A DNA stretch of 34,838 nucleotides from positions 1 to 34,838 of the IMG/VR virus record IMGVR_UViG_3300025237_000012, one strand, 5' to 3'. Shown piece after piece: positions 5,557-22,350 of this stretch (within the stretch, counting starts at the first letter, position 1; every line of letters begins with the position of its first letter). A program made the position numbers and the translations under genes. The DNA is from a virus. The notes under the pieces are model-generated. The model saw only the letters and a list, made by a program, of their open reading frames with translations. It was not told where the DNA came from and did no database searches.

Positions 5557-6699
5557 TTAACCTAACATTAAAGCGGTATGCTCTGGCTTGATGTTCTTAA
5601 CACCCCAAGCCAAGGCAACCTCATAACGAACTTTACGATAGCCTTTATACATCGCAAATTCCATTGATAGGCCTGAACGCGGATCAGTAATAGTGATTAC
5701 GTCTGAAGCCATGTCGCCTTCAGTTGGTCGTGCTGGTGTCCGTGCCGCCAATACTAAGGCAGATCGAGCAAAGCACATATTACGAGCCGCAGCTGCAATG
5801 CTAGTTACCGCAGTTGTTGAAGATGGGATTGCTTGACGCAAGCCTGGTGCTGCAATAACAAGAGTTCCGGGACCGTCTATACCAGTGGTAACAACATACT
5901 GATTTGCATCGCCTGCAAAAGTAACAACATCGCCTGCAATGATCTCATCTGCACCCGTAATTAATGGGATGCTAGTAACACCAACCGCAAAGCCTGCTGC
6001 TGTAGTCGTAAAGTTGCCGTTACTATCACCAATTGATGGTGTGAGTATCTGCGCTGACTCGCGTAGTGGCATACCTGCAATATCAAGCAATACACCTTGA
6101 CGCAATAGGCTATCAGTACCCGCAGCATTAACCGCTGACTGTAGGCCGATCATATTCACGCCTGCGGTTGTATCAATAACCAATTGCGGATCAATATCAC
6201 CACCATTGTCTTTTAATACTTTGCGAGCAAATGCCGCAGCCGTGTAATCGTTCGCAGTTCCAAAGGGAGTAGTGCCCGCAGTACCTACCGCTCGACTCAT
6301 AGATGAATATAAGCCACAAAGGTCAGTCTCAACCGCATTTGTAACCTTACGGATTGCTTGTGCAATCTTTTGAGCACGAACACCAGGATAACCGGGGCCA
6401 GTGTTTAACTTTTTCTGGTCTTCACCATTAAAGCCAAATTCAGACGCTTCACTTCTGGTAATCTGAATGTCAACAAAGCCAGATGTTTGACCAGTAGGCT
6501 CTGGCACTGTCATTGCAGGGGTAATGCTAACTAGATTACCCGCTGGTTCAACGTCAACACGGATGTTTTGATTAAGTCCAACGGTTTCCGCAGATGCGTT
6601 CATTGTTACAGAAGGAACCATACCTGTGAGTTCTCTTGATACAATATCAAGTGCTTCGTAAATGTCGGGTACTAGACCCGTTATAGTATTCTCAGCCAT
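5557..6699 (-). CDS. Major capsid protein, P22 coat-like
   Basis: 380 residues beginning MAENTITGLVPDIYEALDIV, of the P22 gp5-like coat family. Seen: N-arm with VPDIYEALDIVSREL and VTMNASAETVG; a GYPGVRAQKIAQAIRKVTN spine-helix region; and the conserved RNMCFARSALVLAARTPARPTEGD block near residue 310. A segment around residues 230-310 looks like an inserted beta domain (GFAVGVTSIPLITGADEIIAGDVVTFAG), as in coat I-domains. It forms the icosahedral shell with the scaffold encoded just upstream. Slightly shorter than P22 coat. Confidence 0.88.
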   Translation of the reverse strand: MAENTITGLVPDIYEALDIVSRELTGMVPSVTMNASAETVGLNQNIRVDVEPAGNLVSITPAMTVPEPTGQTSGFVDIQITRSEASEFGFNGEDQKKLNTGPGYPGVRAQKIAQAIRKVTNAVETDLCGLYSSMSRAVGTAGTTPFGTANDYTAAAFARKVLKDNGGDIDPQLVIDTTAGVNMIGLQSAVNAAGTDSLLRQGVLLDIAGMPLRESAQILTPSIGDSNGNFTTTAAGFAVGVTSIPLITGADEIIAGDVVTFAGDANQYVVTTGIDGPGTLVIAAPGLRQAIPSSTTAVTSIAAAARNMCFARSALVLAARTPARPTEGDMASDVITITDPRSGLSMEFAMYKGYRKVRYEVALAWGVKNIKPEHTALMLG

Positions 6700-14323: not shown

Positions 14324-14610
14324 TATGCAACCGCCTTAACGACTAATGACCATGTCATGCATTTAGTGCCTTTGATAGAGCAGATGCGGCTATCTTTACG
14401 TTTTCCGCTGTTTTTGACTAGGCCCATTAACTCAAGCTCTGGCAGTCGTCGATTAAATGCGTATGTGTCAAGTCTTGAATACTGTGCAAACTCTGCCGCC
14501 GTAAATGATAAGTTACCATGCGACATATCGCGTACCGCTAACAATACCTCAGTTCTTTGGCCGCCAACATCTGTATTTTGTCTTGCTATCTTGCTTGTTA
14601 ATGCAATCAT
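14323..14610 (-). CDS. Small winged-helix-like protein, unknown
   Basis: 95 residues. A helix-turn-helix pattern is visible at about 35-65 (LSFTAAEFAQYSRLDTYAFNRRLPELELMGLVKN), followed by a short beta wing (SRICSIKGTKCMTWSL). This suggests DNA binding in the manner of small winged-helix regulators. The start overlaps the Mom-like stop as ATGA. Confidence 0.65.
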   Translation of the reverse strand: MIALTSKIARQNTDVGGQRTEVLLAVRDMSHGNLSFTAAEFAQYSRLDTYAFNRRLPELELMGLVKNSGKRKDSRICSIKGTKCMTWSLVVKAVA

Positions 14611-15254
14611 GATTTAATCCTTTTTTTTACGGCTTTGGGATAGCCCAAAACCTTGTATTTTAACGCTTTTCTTATTTTCTTTTTATAGCTCTTGCTGCCC
14701 ACTATAAATATATATCGATGCTTTCTTGATCTTGGCGCTAAGTAAAAGTCATCGCCGTATTTTTCTCGCATTGCAGTCGCTCTATTTTTAACCCCTCTAA
14801 ACTCATCAGCTATTGTTTGTCCATGCAAGTGCTCTTTGCCTTTAACCTTCCAATCGGTACGCTTTGCGCTTAAGCCGCAATAAATAAAGTTTGTAGCTTG
14901 GTAAACATAACCTAGATGACCTTGTGCTATATCCGCAAAGCTAACCACAATTTTATTTGTCGGTAGTATTTTTAAGCTACGGCCAACTAAAATACTAGCC
15001 TCATTCTTTACGTTATTTCTTAAACAAAGCCTATTTAATTCCAAAATGTCGCCCTTATGATCTTCCCCGGCTATGCCAACTTTTAAGGGCGCGCTTGGCG
15101 GTGTGCCATAAGTAACAACACCACATAAAACATTATCTAAATATAATCCAAAAGCATAACTAACACTTGGCCATCTTTTTGCGTAGTGTATTTTTAGTAT
15201 ATATTCTGCACATTGCCGCTTGTTTATAATCCTTACTTCATAACCGAGCTGCAT
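14607..15254 (-). CDS. Mom-like DNA adenine hypermodification protein (GNAT fold)
   Basis: 215 residues. An N-terminal IHYAKRWPSVSYAFGLY and GVVTYGTPPS (beta strands of an acyltransferase-like fold), then LELNRLCLRNNVKNEAS, VSFADIAQGHLGYVYQATNFIYCG and a basic C-terminus. These fit the phage Mu Mom family, which converts adenines to N6-carbamoylmethyl-adenine and protects DNA against many restriction enzymes. The H-Y, N-R-L, F-A-D and G-Y-V-Y-Q-A-T-N elements correspond to the conserved family core. No Com-type translational activator is seen. Family call is by motif reading, activity inferred. Confidence 0.75.
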   Translation of the reverse strand: MQLGYEVRIINKRQCAEYILKIHYAKRWPSVSYAFGLYLDNVLCGVVTYGTPPSAPLKVGIAGEDHKGDILELNRLCLRNNVKNEASILVGRSLKILPTNKIVVSFADIAQGHLGYVYQATNFIYCGLSAKRTDWKVKGKEHLHGQTIADEFRGVKNRATAMREKYGDDFYLAPRSRKHRYIFIVGSKSYKKKIRKALKYKVLGYPKAVKKRIKS

Positions 15255-16405: not shown

Positions 16406-16603
16406 CTATTTAATTATTTCAGCAACTAAGCGCACAACCTTGCCATCTATTACATATTTAGGCGGGCCTTCTAGTTGCCAATCTCTAAGCAACTGTCGGC
16501 TTACTTCCTTGCCTTTGTAAGTTAGCAGGCTATCGGCAAACGCTGCTTGGTTGCCATCTGCATGTGCGTCAATGTAATCTGTAATCGGTGTTAGTTTGCT
16601 CAT
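16406..16603 (-). CDS. Cro-like DNA-binding protein
   Basis: 65 residues, MSKLTPITDYIDAHADGNQAA, with a helix-turn-helix at about 18-42 (NQAAFADSLLTYKGKEVSRQLLRDW) and a C-terminal beta hairpin (PPKYVIDGKVVRLVAEI), the architecture of Cro-type repressors. It lies within the middle operon rather than next to a CI gene. It could act on the palindromic operators at 17006-17021 and 17288-17303, although no site-protein link is shown. AGGATT precedes the start. Confidence 0.6.
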   Translation of the reverse strand: MSKLTPITDYIDAHADGNQAAFADSLLTYKGKEVSRQLLRDWQLEGPPKYVIDGKVVRLVAEIIK

Positions 16604-16654
16604 TTTATAATCCTGTAGTTTTTACCCAAAAACCCCACTTAAGGGGCGTTTAAA

Positions 16655-16978
16655 TTAATAGCCTAAATTCTTAATAATTTCTAAAACTTTTAATCTTCTT
16701 TTTACTGCTGCTTCATTAACGTCACCAGTTACGCCATTTACTGAAAGTGAAACTCTAAAATTAAGGGTTCTGTAAGCTGGAACTAAATTTAAATTACTGT
16801 CTGTGCCACCGCTAACACCGCTTATCTCAGGCTTGCAATACTTTGGGAATTTAGCCGCTAATTCTTCTGGGCCGGTTAAATCTGACTCTAAAAAATTAAA
16901 GCTAATCCTATATTTTGCCTCAGAAAAAGACCTAATACCAAAAAGTGTTTGGTTGCCATCAATTGTGTAAGTGTTCAT
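16655..16978 (-). CDS. Unknown protein under duplicated promoter A
   Basis: 107 residues, MNTYTIDGNQTLFGIRSFSE, beta-rich in the middle (RTLNFRVSLSVNGVTGD) and ending in a basic helix (VKRRLKVLEIIKNLGY). GAGAG lies upstream of the ATG. Promoter copy A lies 36-63 bases before it. No family recognised and no similarity to the gene under copy B. Confidence 0.6.
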   Translation of the reverse strand: MNTYTIDGNQTLFGIRSFSEAKYRISFNFLESDLTGPEELAAKFPKYCKPEISGVSGGTDSNLNLVPAYRTLNFRVSLSVNGVTGDVNEAAVKRRLKVLEIIKNLGY

Positions 16979-16988
16979 AATGTTTTGC

Positions 16989-17046
16989 TCTCTTTAATTA
17001 GTTGATGTAAAGTATTTTACAGCAATATGAGAGAATGTAAAGCTTT
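16989..17046 (-). repeat. Duplicated promoter/operator unit, copy A
   Basis: About 58 bases matching 17271-17328 with only about 5 differences. On the minus strand it contains TTTACA (17041-17036), a 16-base spacer and TAAAAT (17019-17014). The perfect palindrome TGTAAA-N4-TTTACA (17006-17021) overlaps the -10 box, and another TGTAAA half-site forms the -35 box. Confidence 0.85.
17014..17041 (-). promoter_or_regulatory. Promoter A with palindromic operator
   Basis: TTTACA, 16 bases, TAAAAT; both boxes match consensus at five of six positions. The overlapping 16-bp palindrome 17006-17021 would let a dimeric repressor block RNA polymerase. Drives the gene at 16978. Confidence 0.7.
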
Positions 17047-17089
17047 TAAGTAAATTAATTTAAATGAACCGGTTAAAGCCCCGGAGGGG

Positions 17090-17263
17090 TTAAGCAATTA
17101 AAGAATCTAAAGGTAGGGCAATCTCGCCTTTTCCTAATTGACTGTGATCTTTTGGGTTGACTGATTTTAATTGTGCGTAATCACAATTATCTATTACTCT
17201 AAAGCCTATAATTAAAAAAGTACCTGCGTTTTTGCCTTTGACTATCTGATTTAAATTAAACAT
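17090..17263 (-). CDS. Small protein under duplicated promoter B, unknown
   Basis: 57 residues, MFNLNQIVKGKNAGTFLIIG, then FRVIDNCDYAQLKSVNPKDH and ending GKGEIALPLDSLIA. The N-terminal KGxxAGTFLIIGF beta hairpin and the closing GEIALPLDxL recur in small conserved phage proteins of unknown function. AAAGAG precedes the ATG at 17263. It is bracketed by the two promoter copies, so it forms a self-contained cassette. Confidence 0.6.
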   Translation of the reverse strand: MFNLNQIVKGKNAGTFLIIGFRVIDNCDYAQLKSVNPKDHSQLGKGEIALPLDSLIA

Positions 17264-17270
17264 TTTTATA

Positions 17271-17328
17271 TCTCTTTAGTTAGTTGATGTAAAGTATTTT
17301 ACACTAATATTAGAGAATGTAAAGCTTT
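17271..17328 (-). repeat. Duplicated promoter/operator unit, copy B
   Basis: Second copy of the unit at 16989-17046, offset 282 bases, about 5 differences, none of them in the -35, -10 or palindrome. Contains TTTACA 17323-17318, TAAAAT 17301-17296 and palindrome 17288-17303. Confidence 0.85.
17296..17323 (-). promoter_or_regulatory. Promoter B with palindromic operator
   Basis: Same boxes, spacer length and palindrome as promoter A. It lies 33-60 bases upstream of the 57-residue gene at 17263 and just downstream of the stop of the 76-residue gene. Confidence 0.7.
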
Positions 17329-17332
17329 ATAG

Positions 17333-17563
17333 TTAATATTCGTCAATTAATTTATGAAAGGATCGTTCAGCCATCGATAATGCTGCACCTAACAAGATAG
17401 CTTGCTCTCCTTGGCTGGATTCATAGCCTATACCGCCGCTGGGCGTTACATAAGCAATGGCAACGTCTACAATTCTACCGGCCTCAATCTCTACTATGGC
17501 TTCTTGGAGCATCTCAATAGCGTCTTTATTCGTGCGCTTTTTTATATCTACTATATTTACCAT
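17333..17563 (-). CDS. Conserved small phage protein, unknown
   Basis: 76 residues, MVNIVDIKKRTNKDAIEMLQ, then IEAGRIVDVAIAYVTPSGGI and a C-terminal helix with LLGAALSMAERSFHKLI. The pattern DAIEML...G-x-I-V-D-V-A-I-A-x-V-x-x-x-G-x-I is recurrent in small phage proteins found among middle genes. AAGAGGT precedes the ATG. Function unknown. Confidence 0.65.
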   Translation of the reverse strand: MVNIVDIKKRTNKDAIEMLQEAIVEIEAGRIVDVAIAYVTPSGGIGYESSQGEQAILLGAALSMAERSFHKLIDEY

Positions 17564-17572
17564 GATTACCTC

Positions 17573-17818
17573 TTATATTGCCTTCCATGTTTTTAATTGA
17601 CCGCGCAAAGTATCTTCTTTAATACACCATACATGATACGCGATAAATTTAAGCGCTATTCCGCATGATCTTAGCTCTAAGATCATTGCCACGTCTGTTC
17701 TCGTTAGCTTTCTTTGTGTCATTACATCAACCTGGTTAGCGGTGTTATATCTATCGTCAATATATAAAAAATAATTATTGTGCTTAATACTAATATGCCG
17801 TATCTCATTAAAGACCAT
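17573..17818 (-). CDS. Probable helix-turn-helix protein, unknown
   Basis: 81 residues from the longest frame. The C-terminal half (KLTRTDVAMILELRSCGIAL and KFIAYHVWCIKEDTLRGQLK) looks like a helix-turn-helix, of the kind where 'IxxMRxxGxSYxxIA' recurs in phage regulators. An internal ATG at 17719 has an AGG-TTGATGTA leader and could be the true start, giving 48 residues. The 17818 start overlaps the previous gene by 11 bases without an obvious Shine-Dalgarno site. Confidence 0.5.
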   Translation of the reverse strand: MVFNEIRHISIKHNNYFLYIDDRYNTANQVDVMTQRKLTRTDVAMILELRSCGIALKFIAYHVWCIKEDTLRGQLKTWKAI

Positions 17819-17996
17819 TTTTGTTGAACTTGCTGTCTACTTTGGCTTCGTCATAGCTTGAATGGCTATCTGGCTTTTTATCTATCTTGCCACCACCTTT
17901 TAAAAATGCCTTTATTTGCGAGTCTATATCGTCCCGGCTTTGCTGGCGTATCTTAATAAAACAATTGTTTAGCGTTACTGTTAGTTGCTTATCCAT
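17808..17996 (-). CDS. Small basic/helical protein, unknown
   Basis: 62 residues from ATG 17996 (MDKQLTVTLNNCFIKIRQQS), preceded by AAAGGGG. The ATG overlaps the stop of the upstream gene by 8 bases. An N-terminal helix is followed by a Gly/Lys-rich, disordered tail. No family recognised. Confidence 0.5.
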   Translation of the reverse strand: MDKQLTVTLNNCFIKIRQQSRDDIDSQIKAFLKGGGKIDKKPDSHSSYDEAKVDSKFNKNGL

Positions 17997-18369
17997 ATCT
18001 ATAGAACCCCTTTGACCCAAATTTGGCAGCTAAGGCAACAGCTCGTTTGATTGCTCGATAGTCTGCATTAAATAGCTTACTTAACTGATAATACCCTTTG
18101 CCGCCTTTGTGAAGCCTCTGAGCGCTTAAAGCCTCCATGTATGTAATCGTATCGGTTTTGTTAACTAAGCTCTTGGGCGGTATCTCACCGCGCATTTTGG
18201 CTGCTCTGCGGTCGTTAGCTATCTTTTTCTTTGCTGCGATCTTGTAAACTTCGTAATTTGTCTTTGTTGATGTTATCCATACACCGTTCACTTGCCAAAG
18301 AGCGTAGGTTCTTGGCCCTTGTCGATATTTAACATGATCGTGTGGCACTTCGCCGGTAATATTATTCAT
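17989..18369 (-). CDS. Unknown protein with C-terminal helix-turn-helix-like segment
   Basis: 126 residues from ATG 18369 (MNNITGEVPHDHVKYRQGPR); a TTG 15 bases upstream is the alternative. A strand-rich N-terminus (TYALWQVNGVWITSTKTNYE) precedes a very basic helix (IAAKKKIANDRRAAKMRGEI). A HTH-like stretch at about 98-120 follows (YYQLSKLFNADYRAIKRAVA). A DNA-binding role is likely. It sits just after the replication genes, where lambda-type phages carry nin genes. Confidence 0.55.
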   Translation of the reverse strand: MNNITGEVPHDHVKYRQGPRTYALWQVNGVWITSTKTNYEVYKIAAKKKIANDRRAAKMRGEIPPKSLVNKTDTITYMEALSAQRLHKGGKGYYQLSKLFNADYRAIKRAVALAAKFGSKGFYRYG

Positions 18370-21872: not shown

Positions 21873-22022
21873 CTATTTATTTTTACGTTTGTCTTTTTCC
21901 ATTGCTGCGCGTAGTGCATCTCTAGCTATCTGGCTATAAGAGCTACCTGTTTCTGCTTTCTTGTCTTCTAGCCACTGATCAAGATCATAGTTTAATTTAG
22001 TTGGTGCTAGTGTGCGGGGCAT
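21873..22022 (-). CDS. Ribbon-helix-helix (Arc/CopG-like) regulator, first left-early gene
   Basis: 49 residues, MPRTLAPTKLNYDLDQWLED then TGSSYSQIARDALRAAMEKD. One beta strand and two helices with the S-x-S-x-I-x-R-x-A-L pattern of ribbon-helix-helix repressors. As the first leftward gene beside the divergent control region it could repress one or both early promoters. No clear Shine-Dalgarno site, so expression may be low or leaderless. Confidence 0.65.
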   Translation of the reverse strand: MPRTLAPTKLNYDLDQWLEDKKAETGSSYSQIARDALRAAMEKDKRKNK

Positions 22023-22170
22023 ATATTAGTGCTCGTCGTGAATTAGGCTTAACTTTAACATAGAATGATATATAACATCAATATATAAAGTCATATGAAT
22101 TTAATATAAATAATAGTTGACGGTAGCAGCATAAAGCTTTACTCTATATGCAACTTCAAGAGGTAGCCAA
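22023..22170. promoter_or_regulatory. Divergent early control region
   Basis: 148-base AT-rich gap between the leftward ribbon-helix-helix gene and the rightward operon. Contains the rightward promoter listed separately and several TATATA tracts; leftward promoter boxes are present only as weak candidates (TTGATG at 22082-22077). No palindrome as clear as that at 17006 is seen. Confidence 0.55.
22117..22145 (+). promoter_or_regulatory. Candidate rightward early promoter
   Basis: TTGACG at 22117-22122 (five of six), 17-base spacer, TACTCT at 22140-22145 (weak), 25 bases before the first rightward gene. Confidence 0.45.
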
Positions 22171-22350
22171 ATGACAGAATCACAAATACAAGCTGCAAAT
22201 CTAAAAGCTATTACTAAAACTATTGACGCTTTGCAGGCTGGCTACGTTAACAATATTAAAGACGACAATTTACAGCGCAGAATAGATGGCTTATTAACAT
22301 CTGCTCGTAATATAGCTGCATTAGCTGCAACCGAAAACTACAACCAATAA
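22171..22350 (+). CDS. Small helical protein, first right-early gene, unknown
   Basis: 59 residues, MTESQIQAANLKAITKTIDA then two further helices (LQRRIDGLLTSARNIAALAA). AAGAGGT precedes the ATG. Short helical bundle or dimer; no family recognised. Confidence 0.6.
   Translation: MTESQIQAANLKAITKTIDALQAGYVNNIKDDNLQRRIDGLLTSARNIAALAATENYNQ

Follow-up and report, generated by a model that had tools for sequence, protein, structure and literature searches.

A promoter/operator-like repeat at a variable early-gene slot of a Kagunavirus-related phage: a putative site of gene swapping under shared control

Introduction

In T4-like phages, promoter early stem-loops (PeSLs) are reported to mediate gene shuffling between related phages (Arbiol et al., 2010; Comeau et al., 2014; cited in PMC4503421 and PMC5931544). 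In cluster K mycobacteriophages, the start-associated SAS/ESAS repeats, whose function is unknown, occur as 11-19 copies of 13 bp per genome and lie a few bases ahead of the points at which various nonstructural genes start. Some are preceded by inverted repeats, which have also been discussed as promoters or operators and which, in two of these phages, consist of 6-bp half-sites separated by 4 bp (PMC3203893).

The window analyzed here is an entire IMG/VR virus record of 34,838 bases from an uncultivated phage, whose terminase is ~60% identical to those of Kagunavirus and of Plesiomonas phage phiP4-7. Among the genes read, of which a part was classified, no integrase or CI-like gene was noticed. 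The window contains two copies, A and B, of a 58-base unit (Table 1), each ahead of a small gene on the minus strand, which is the strand of the genes surrounding them. Like PeSLs, the units are repeats that have, by sequence, the features of a sigma70-type early promoter, stand in front of small early genes and would take part in gene shuffling between related phages. They differ from PeSLs in having no internal stem-loop but an operator palindrome over the -10, in their number (two in the window and one per related record, whereas PeSLs are present in many copies), and in belonging to a Kagunavirus-related rather than a T4-like phage. With SAS/ESAS they share a conserved repeat placed closely ahead of the start codons of differing genes, as well as 6-bp half-sites with a 4-bp spacer; however, the unit is present in only one or two copies, has clear -35 and -10 boxes and is confined to one slot. 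PeSLs and SAS/ESAS are functionally the closest described systems, but the unit belongs to neither, because its repeat contains no stem-loop and no more than two copies are present per genome. It would represent a form of promoter-linked gene swapping that is distinct from both and has a putative operator.

Two further likenesses are partial. As in a phage moron, an extra small gene with its own putative promoter lies among conserved genes and is A+T-richer than its surroundings, but the hairpins after the genes are weak (z +0.85 and -0.73), no prophage context is seen, and different cargos lie behind one promoter/operator unit. TyrR/PhhR boxes have the form TGTAAA-N6-TTTACA; their half-sites are identical to those of the unit, whereas the spacer of the unit is N4 and no aromatic amino acid genes accompany it.

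Results

Two near-identical units head two successive genes

Units A and B are offset by 282 bases and identical at 54 of 58 positions, with mismatches only at unit positions 18, 24, 25, and 50. Over a longer stretch of 76 nt they still agree at 86%, and no other 58-mer in the window agrees with the unit at more than 34 of 58 positions. A first-pass annotation of the window had described this pair and was correct in doing so, as it was in stating that the boxes and the palindrome are perfectly conserved between the units and that the -35 is itself a half-site. Read on the minus strand, each unit runs TTTACA-TTCTCTnATATTnn-TGTAAAATACTTTACA-TCAACTAAnTAAAGAGA and is closed by a Shine-Dalgarno-like sequence directly ahead of an ATG that begins a few nucleotides later; the distance from unit to ATG is always 6-9 nt before four different first genes, in the window and in its relatives. 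Unit B is the start region of a 57-aa gene, and the gene that follows, of 107 aa, has its start region in unit A. The two units therefore form two tandem unit-gene modules and do not frame a one-gene cassette, as had been proposed.

Table 1. Positions in the window of the units, their elements, and neighboring or related features
Feature	Position	Strand	Remark
Mom-family protein	14607-15254	-	Pfam PF25680, E 2.5e-42
Conserved 65-aa gene, right slot boundary	16406-16603	-	80-95% identical in the five unit-bearing contigs
Terminator-like site, single	16632-16647		
Cargo gene 2, 107 aa, no function assigned	16655-16978	-	58% identical relative in L002
Unit A, putative promoter/operator/leader of 107-aa gene	16989-17046 (full repeat 16980-17055)	-	Leader and flanks L038-like
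Unit A putative operator palindrome TGTAAAATACTTTACA	17006-17021	no strand	Invariant in relatives
Unit A -10-like TAAAAT, within palindrome	17014-17019	-	
Unit A -35-like TTTACA, doubles as half-site	17036-17041	-	
57-aa cargo gene 1, product modeled as a small all-beta (Tudor/SH3-like) protein	17090-17263	-	Model pLDDT 88
Unit B, putative promoter/operator/leader of 57-aa gene	17271-17328 (full repeat 17262-17337)	-	54/58 identical to unit A; kept in five other contigs
Unit B putative operator palindrome TGTAAAATACTTTACA	17288-17303	no strand	Invariant in relatives
Unit B -10-like TAAAAT, within palindrome	17296-17301	-	
Unit B -35-like TTTACA, doubles as half-site	17318-17323	-	
Conserved 76-aa gene, left slot boundary	17333-17563	-	
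Small protein with SutA RNA-polymerase-binding domain	17808-18020	-	Pfam 32.1 bits vs cut-off 29.3
49-aa ribbon-helix-helix-looking protein at divergent promoter	21873-22022	-	Also in L038 and L058

Promoter-like and operator-like elements

Both units contain TTTACA-16-TAAAAT together with TGTAAA-N4-TTTACA, without any difference between them, and in both the promoter-like boxes agree with the sigma70 consensus at 10 of 12 positions. Sigma70-type matches are not enriched in the region (32 found vs 43 expected from shuffles), and consensus matches alone therefore prove little. The composite TTTACA-N13..19-TGTAAAATACTTTACA occurs twice in the window and in none of 100 shuffles. The palindrome matches itself at 14 of 16 positions, and the three half-sites begin at 0, 20, and 30 bp, so that they lie on roughly the same face of the DNA; that TTTACA serves as -35 and half-site at once could be coincidence. 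The promoter/operator-like character attributed to the units in the first pass is thus supported by their sequence, but the wider phage regulon that it had envisaged is not, since no further intergenic operator was found in the window or its relatives with up to three mismatches allowed. Each phage scanned has one operator locus. In L104, the -35 region (242-257) reads TTAAATACTTTACAT, of which 13 nt agree with the right portion of the operator, as if a second operator copy had arisen.

No stem-loop terminator lies within the repeat, and the leader is short and free of stable structure. Unit A, but not unit B, is preceded by a hairpin; this lies outside the repeat and is no better than those of shuffled sequences. 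Regulation through an RNA hairpin or leader was considered and rejected: the palindrome straddles the -10, so that its left arm should be untranscribed, and folding does not exceed that of shuffles.

The unit marks one slot in five related contigs

The exact 16-mer palindrome is found in 113 IMG/VR stretches; among those compared as loci, only five relatives are similar beyond the 16-mer. The full unit occurs outside the window in only five IMG/VR contigs (L104, L058, L052, L038, and L010), one copy each, L038 and L010 being identical around it. A looser three-half-site pattern adds L271-L274, which are without the rest of the unit. In GTDB genomes, 105 pattern matches were obtained, and the loci retrieved, from a set with a single genome for each of 84,980 species, contained no full unit. 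No DNA match was obtained in 50,697 phage records, and the publications found on these half-sites treat other systems.

All five relatives have the same gene order: the 76-aa gene (73-77 aa), one unit, variable cargo, and the 65-aa gene. The cargo consists of a 49-aa and a 70-aa gene in L104, L058, and L052 and of a 76-aa gene in L038 and L010, while the window has the 57-aa gene, a second unit, and the 107-aa gene; behind the unit at this same slot, the cargo genes of the window and its relatives are unrelated. A search with the 65-aa protein returned exactly the five unit-bearing contigs, and a search with the 76-aa protein returned these and the distant L269, which is without the unit. The first-pass annotation had advised a search for genomes lacking 17047-17328; relatives with a single unit do exist (L104, L058, L052, and L038/L010). 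None of the relatives has an empty slot, each having the unit plus some cargo, and none has the unit followed directly by the 107-aa gene, the expected deletion product. An insertable small gene is supported to this extent, but the empty-slot relative of a moron-type insertion was not seen; likewise, clean loss of the cassette through the direct repeats is plausible, but is not represented among the relatives.

Conservation and mosaicism at the unit

When the window is compared with its relatives, 47-51 of the 54 unit positions agree (87-94%), against 68-74% over the upstream gene region (250 nt). Across the five distinct unit sequences (54 columns), only columns 13, 14, 15, 19, 20, 45, 46, and 54 vary, and the -35, TTCTCT, -10, palindrome, TCAACTAA, and AAAGAGA are invariant. 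Divergence of the palindrome in close relatives, which the first-pass annotation would have counted against its reading, is accordingly not what is seen. Changes cluster modestly in the entire 14-nt spacer, a segment defined beforehand (P = 0.02); the value for the last 8 nt of the spacer (P = 0.0008) applies to a segment picked post hoc.

L104 and L058 are identical at 52 of 97 positions in the last 100 nt ahead of the unit and at 48 of 50, then mostly 50 of 50, from the unit onward. This leap at the unit edge, from 54% to 96-100%, places an exchange junction at or very near that edge. In L058, an HNH endonuclease gene (6101-6484) immediately precedes the 76-aa gene, near the exchange junction.

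Judged by its sequence, the window is itself a mosaic with flanks of two origins. The 50 nt ahead of unit B agree with L058 at 40 of 50 positions and with L038 at 29 of 50, whereas unit A and its leader are L038-like (GAGAGCAAAACATTATG in the window vs GAGAGCAAAGCATCATG in L038), as are the 65-aa gene, with 94% nucleotide identity, and the gap that follows the cargo. The window thus looks like two slot versions joined at the unit. The relatives are five contigs from about three independent lineages, and conservation and linkage to the 65-aa gene therefore partly reflect common descent.

Cargo genes

Relatives of the 57-aa protein are found in L116/L117, at 14 viral loci, where the gene mostly lies directly behind a promoter-like sequence different from the unit, and in three phage records. 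The gene has 31% G+C vs 41% for the genome. The structure predicted for its product is confident and all-beta and matches PDB folds weakly (best E 0.04), the matches including the RNA-polymerase-binding domains of Mfd, CarD, and the UvrD C-terminal Tudor among other Tudor/chromo folds; this modeled likeness is a lead and does not assign a function. Upstream of 1315 in L275, a relative of the 57-aa gene is preceded by another palindrome, GTTGAATAATTCAAC, in a promoter-like region, so that the gene may often be operator-controlled. The 107-aa protein has one relative, in L002, within an operon without the unit, and 369 phage records contain relatives of the 70-aa cargo found in L104. Since relatives of the 57-, 107-, and 70-aa cargos occur elsewhere, small phage genes that are portable make up part of the cargo; those found elsewhere sit behind other promoters. 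Proteins resembling the SutA RNA-polymerase-binding domain precede the slot in L058 and L038, as in the window.

Candidate readers of the operator

The 65-aa protein has no family match in profile libraries and no credible PDB match, and its model (pLDDT 57) is too poor to judge the fold and gave no fold match; profile matches to HisF in the PDB span ~20 residues and look like chance. The label "Cro-like" given to it earlier is thus unconfirmed by profile libraries, the PDB, or a confident model. Its gene, the nearest conserved one downstream of the unit, is seen only together with the unit, which fits autoregulation, and this linkage in about three lineages hints at it faintly. The 65-aa product may tentatively be named the leading candidate reader of the operator. 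Other possible readers are a host repressor or the 49-aa ribbon-helix-helix-looking protein, for which no Pfam or PHROG family was found at cut-off.

The 49-aa gene lies at a conserved divergent early promoter region (window 22015-22175), in which the unit-type palindrome is absent. In this region, AAAGCTTTACTCT is invariant in the window, L038, and L058, and AAAGCTTTAC is found elsewhere in the window only at units A and B.

Discussion

These comparisons make it probable that the unit is an operator-covered internal sigma70 promoter that heads an interchangeable early-gene slot and supplies homology for gene swapping and stacking; the slot has the look of a place at which small accessory genes are exchanged between phages while remaining under shared control. 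Each unit would be a complete start module for one gene, comprising promoter, operator, leader, and Shine-Dalgarno-like sequence, with the putative promoter TTTACA-16-TAAAAT internal to the minus-strand early operon. The 16-bp palindrome would cover the -10 and the start region, the -35 providing a third half-site, and a DNA-binding protein seated on the palindrome would shut the promoter; were the 65-aa product this repressor, as its linkage to the unit faintly suggests, the module would be autoregulated. Since the same unit precedes every cargo, homologous recombination there could exchange one cargo for another or add a further unit-gene pair to give a stacked arrangement, and the window would represent the stacked state, with the region upstream of unit B closest to L058 and that from unit A onward closest to L038. 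A bolder proposal, which we consider doubtful, is that the conserved unit and its variable cargo make up a plug-in control module, in which a recombined gene would at once be repressed and timed by the 65-aa regulator of the phage. As part of it, the cargo may act on host transcription, because the predicted 57-aa fold weakly resembles RNA-polymerase-binding Tudor/SH3 domains and a protein like the SutA RNA-polymerase-binding domain is encoded nearby.

The operator could instead be read by a host repressor, so that host physiology rather than a phage regulator induces the cargo. A single operator locus per phage would suit such an external regulator, and the half-sites resemble those of TyrR boxes; however, TyrR spacing is N6 rather than N4, the full unit is absent from the loci returned from 84,980 species genomes, and the unit is seen solely beside the 65-aa gene. 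We regard this alternative as a minor possibility. It is also unlikely that no protein reads the palindrome, which would then be a by-product of A+T-rich -35 and -10 boxes in a plain constitutive early promoter spread by recent recombination. With so few lineages the invariance of the palindrome may reflect recent common origin, but a promoter has no need of a palindrome that matches itself at 14 of 16 positions and is joined by a third half-site in 10-bp phase, and the palindrome is unchanged in five distinct units while the spacer varies.

Two remaining explanations concern the repeat itself. The exchange junction at the unit edge and the tandem arrangement in the window would be expected if the repeat were mainly a recombination tag or DNA-processing site whose promoter likeness is incidental, a reading rendered very improbable by the fixed short distance to the ATG, the Shine-Dalgarno-like end, and the proper spacing of -35 and -10. 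Least credible is a tandem duplication of one unit-gene module whose genes then diverged: the units do stand in direct repeat, but the proteins of 57 and 107 aa show no apparent relationship, each has relatives of its own at other places, and the flanks of units A and B point to different relatives.

If the unit is indeed an operator-covered promoter heading an exchangeable slot, it could serve as a sequence tag for locating, without homology, the accessory early genes that phages of this group carry, and promoter-guided gene swapping would exist outside T4-like phages. The built-in operator would, moreover, keep any newly acquired gene controlled.

Beyond the slot, the window also encodes a member of the Mom family, that of the DNA-modification protein of phage Mu, and a 198-aa gene without a Pfam match lies near the corresponding place in L104 and L038.
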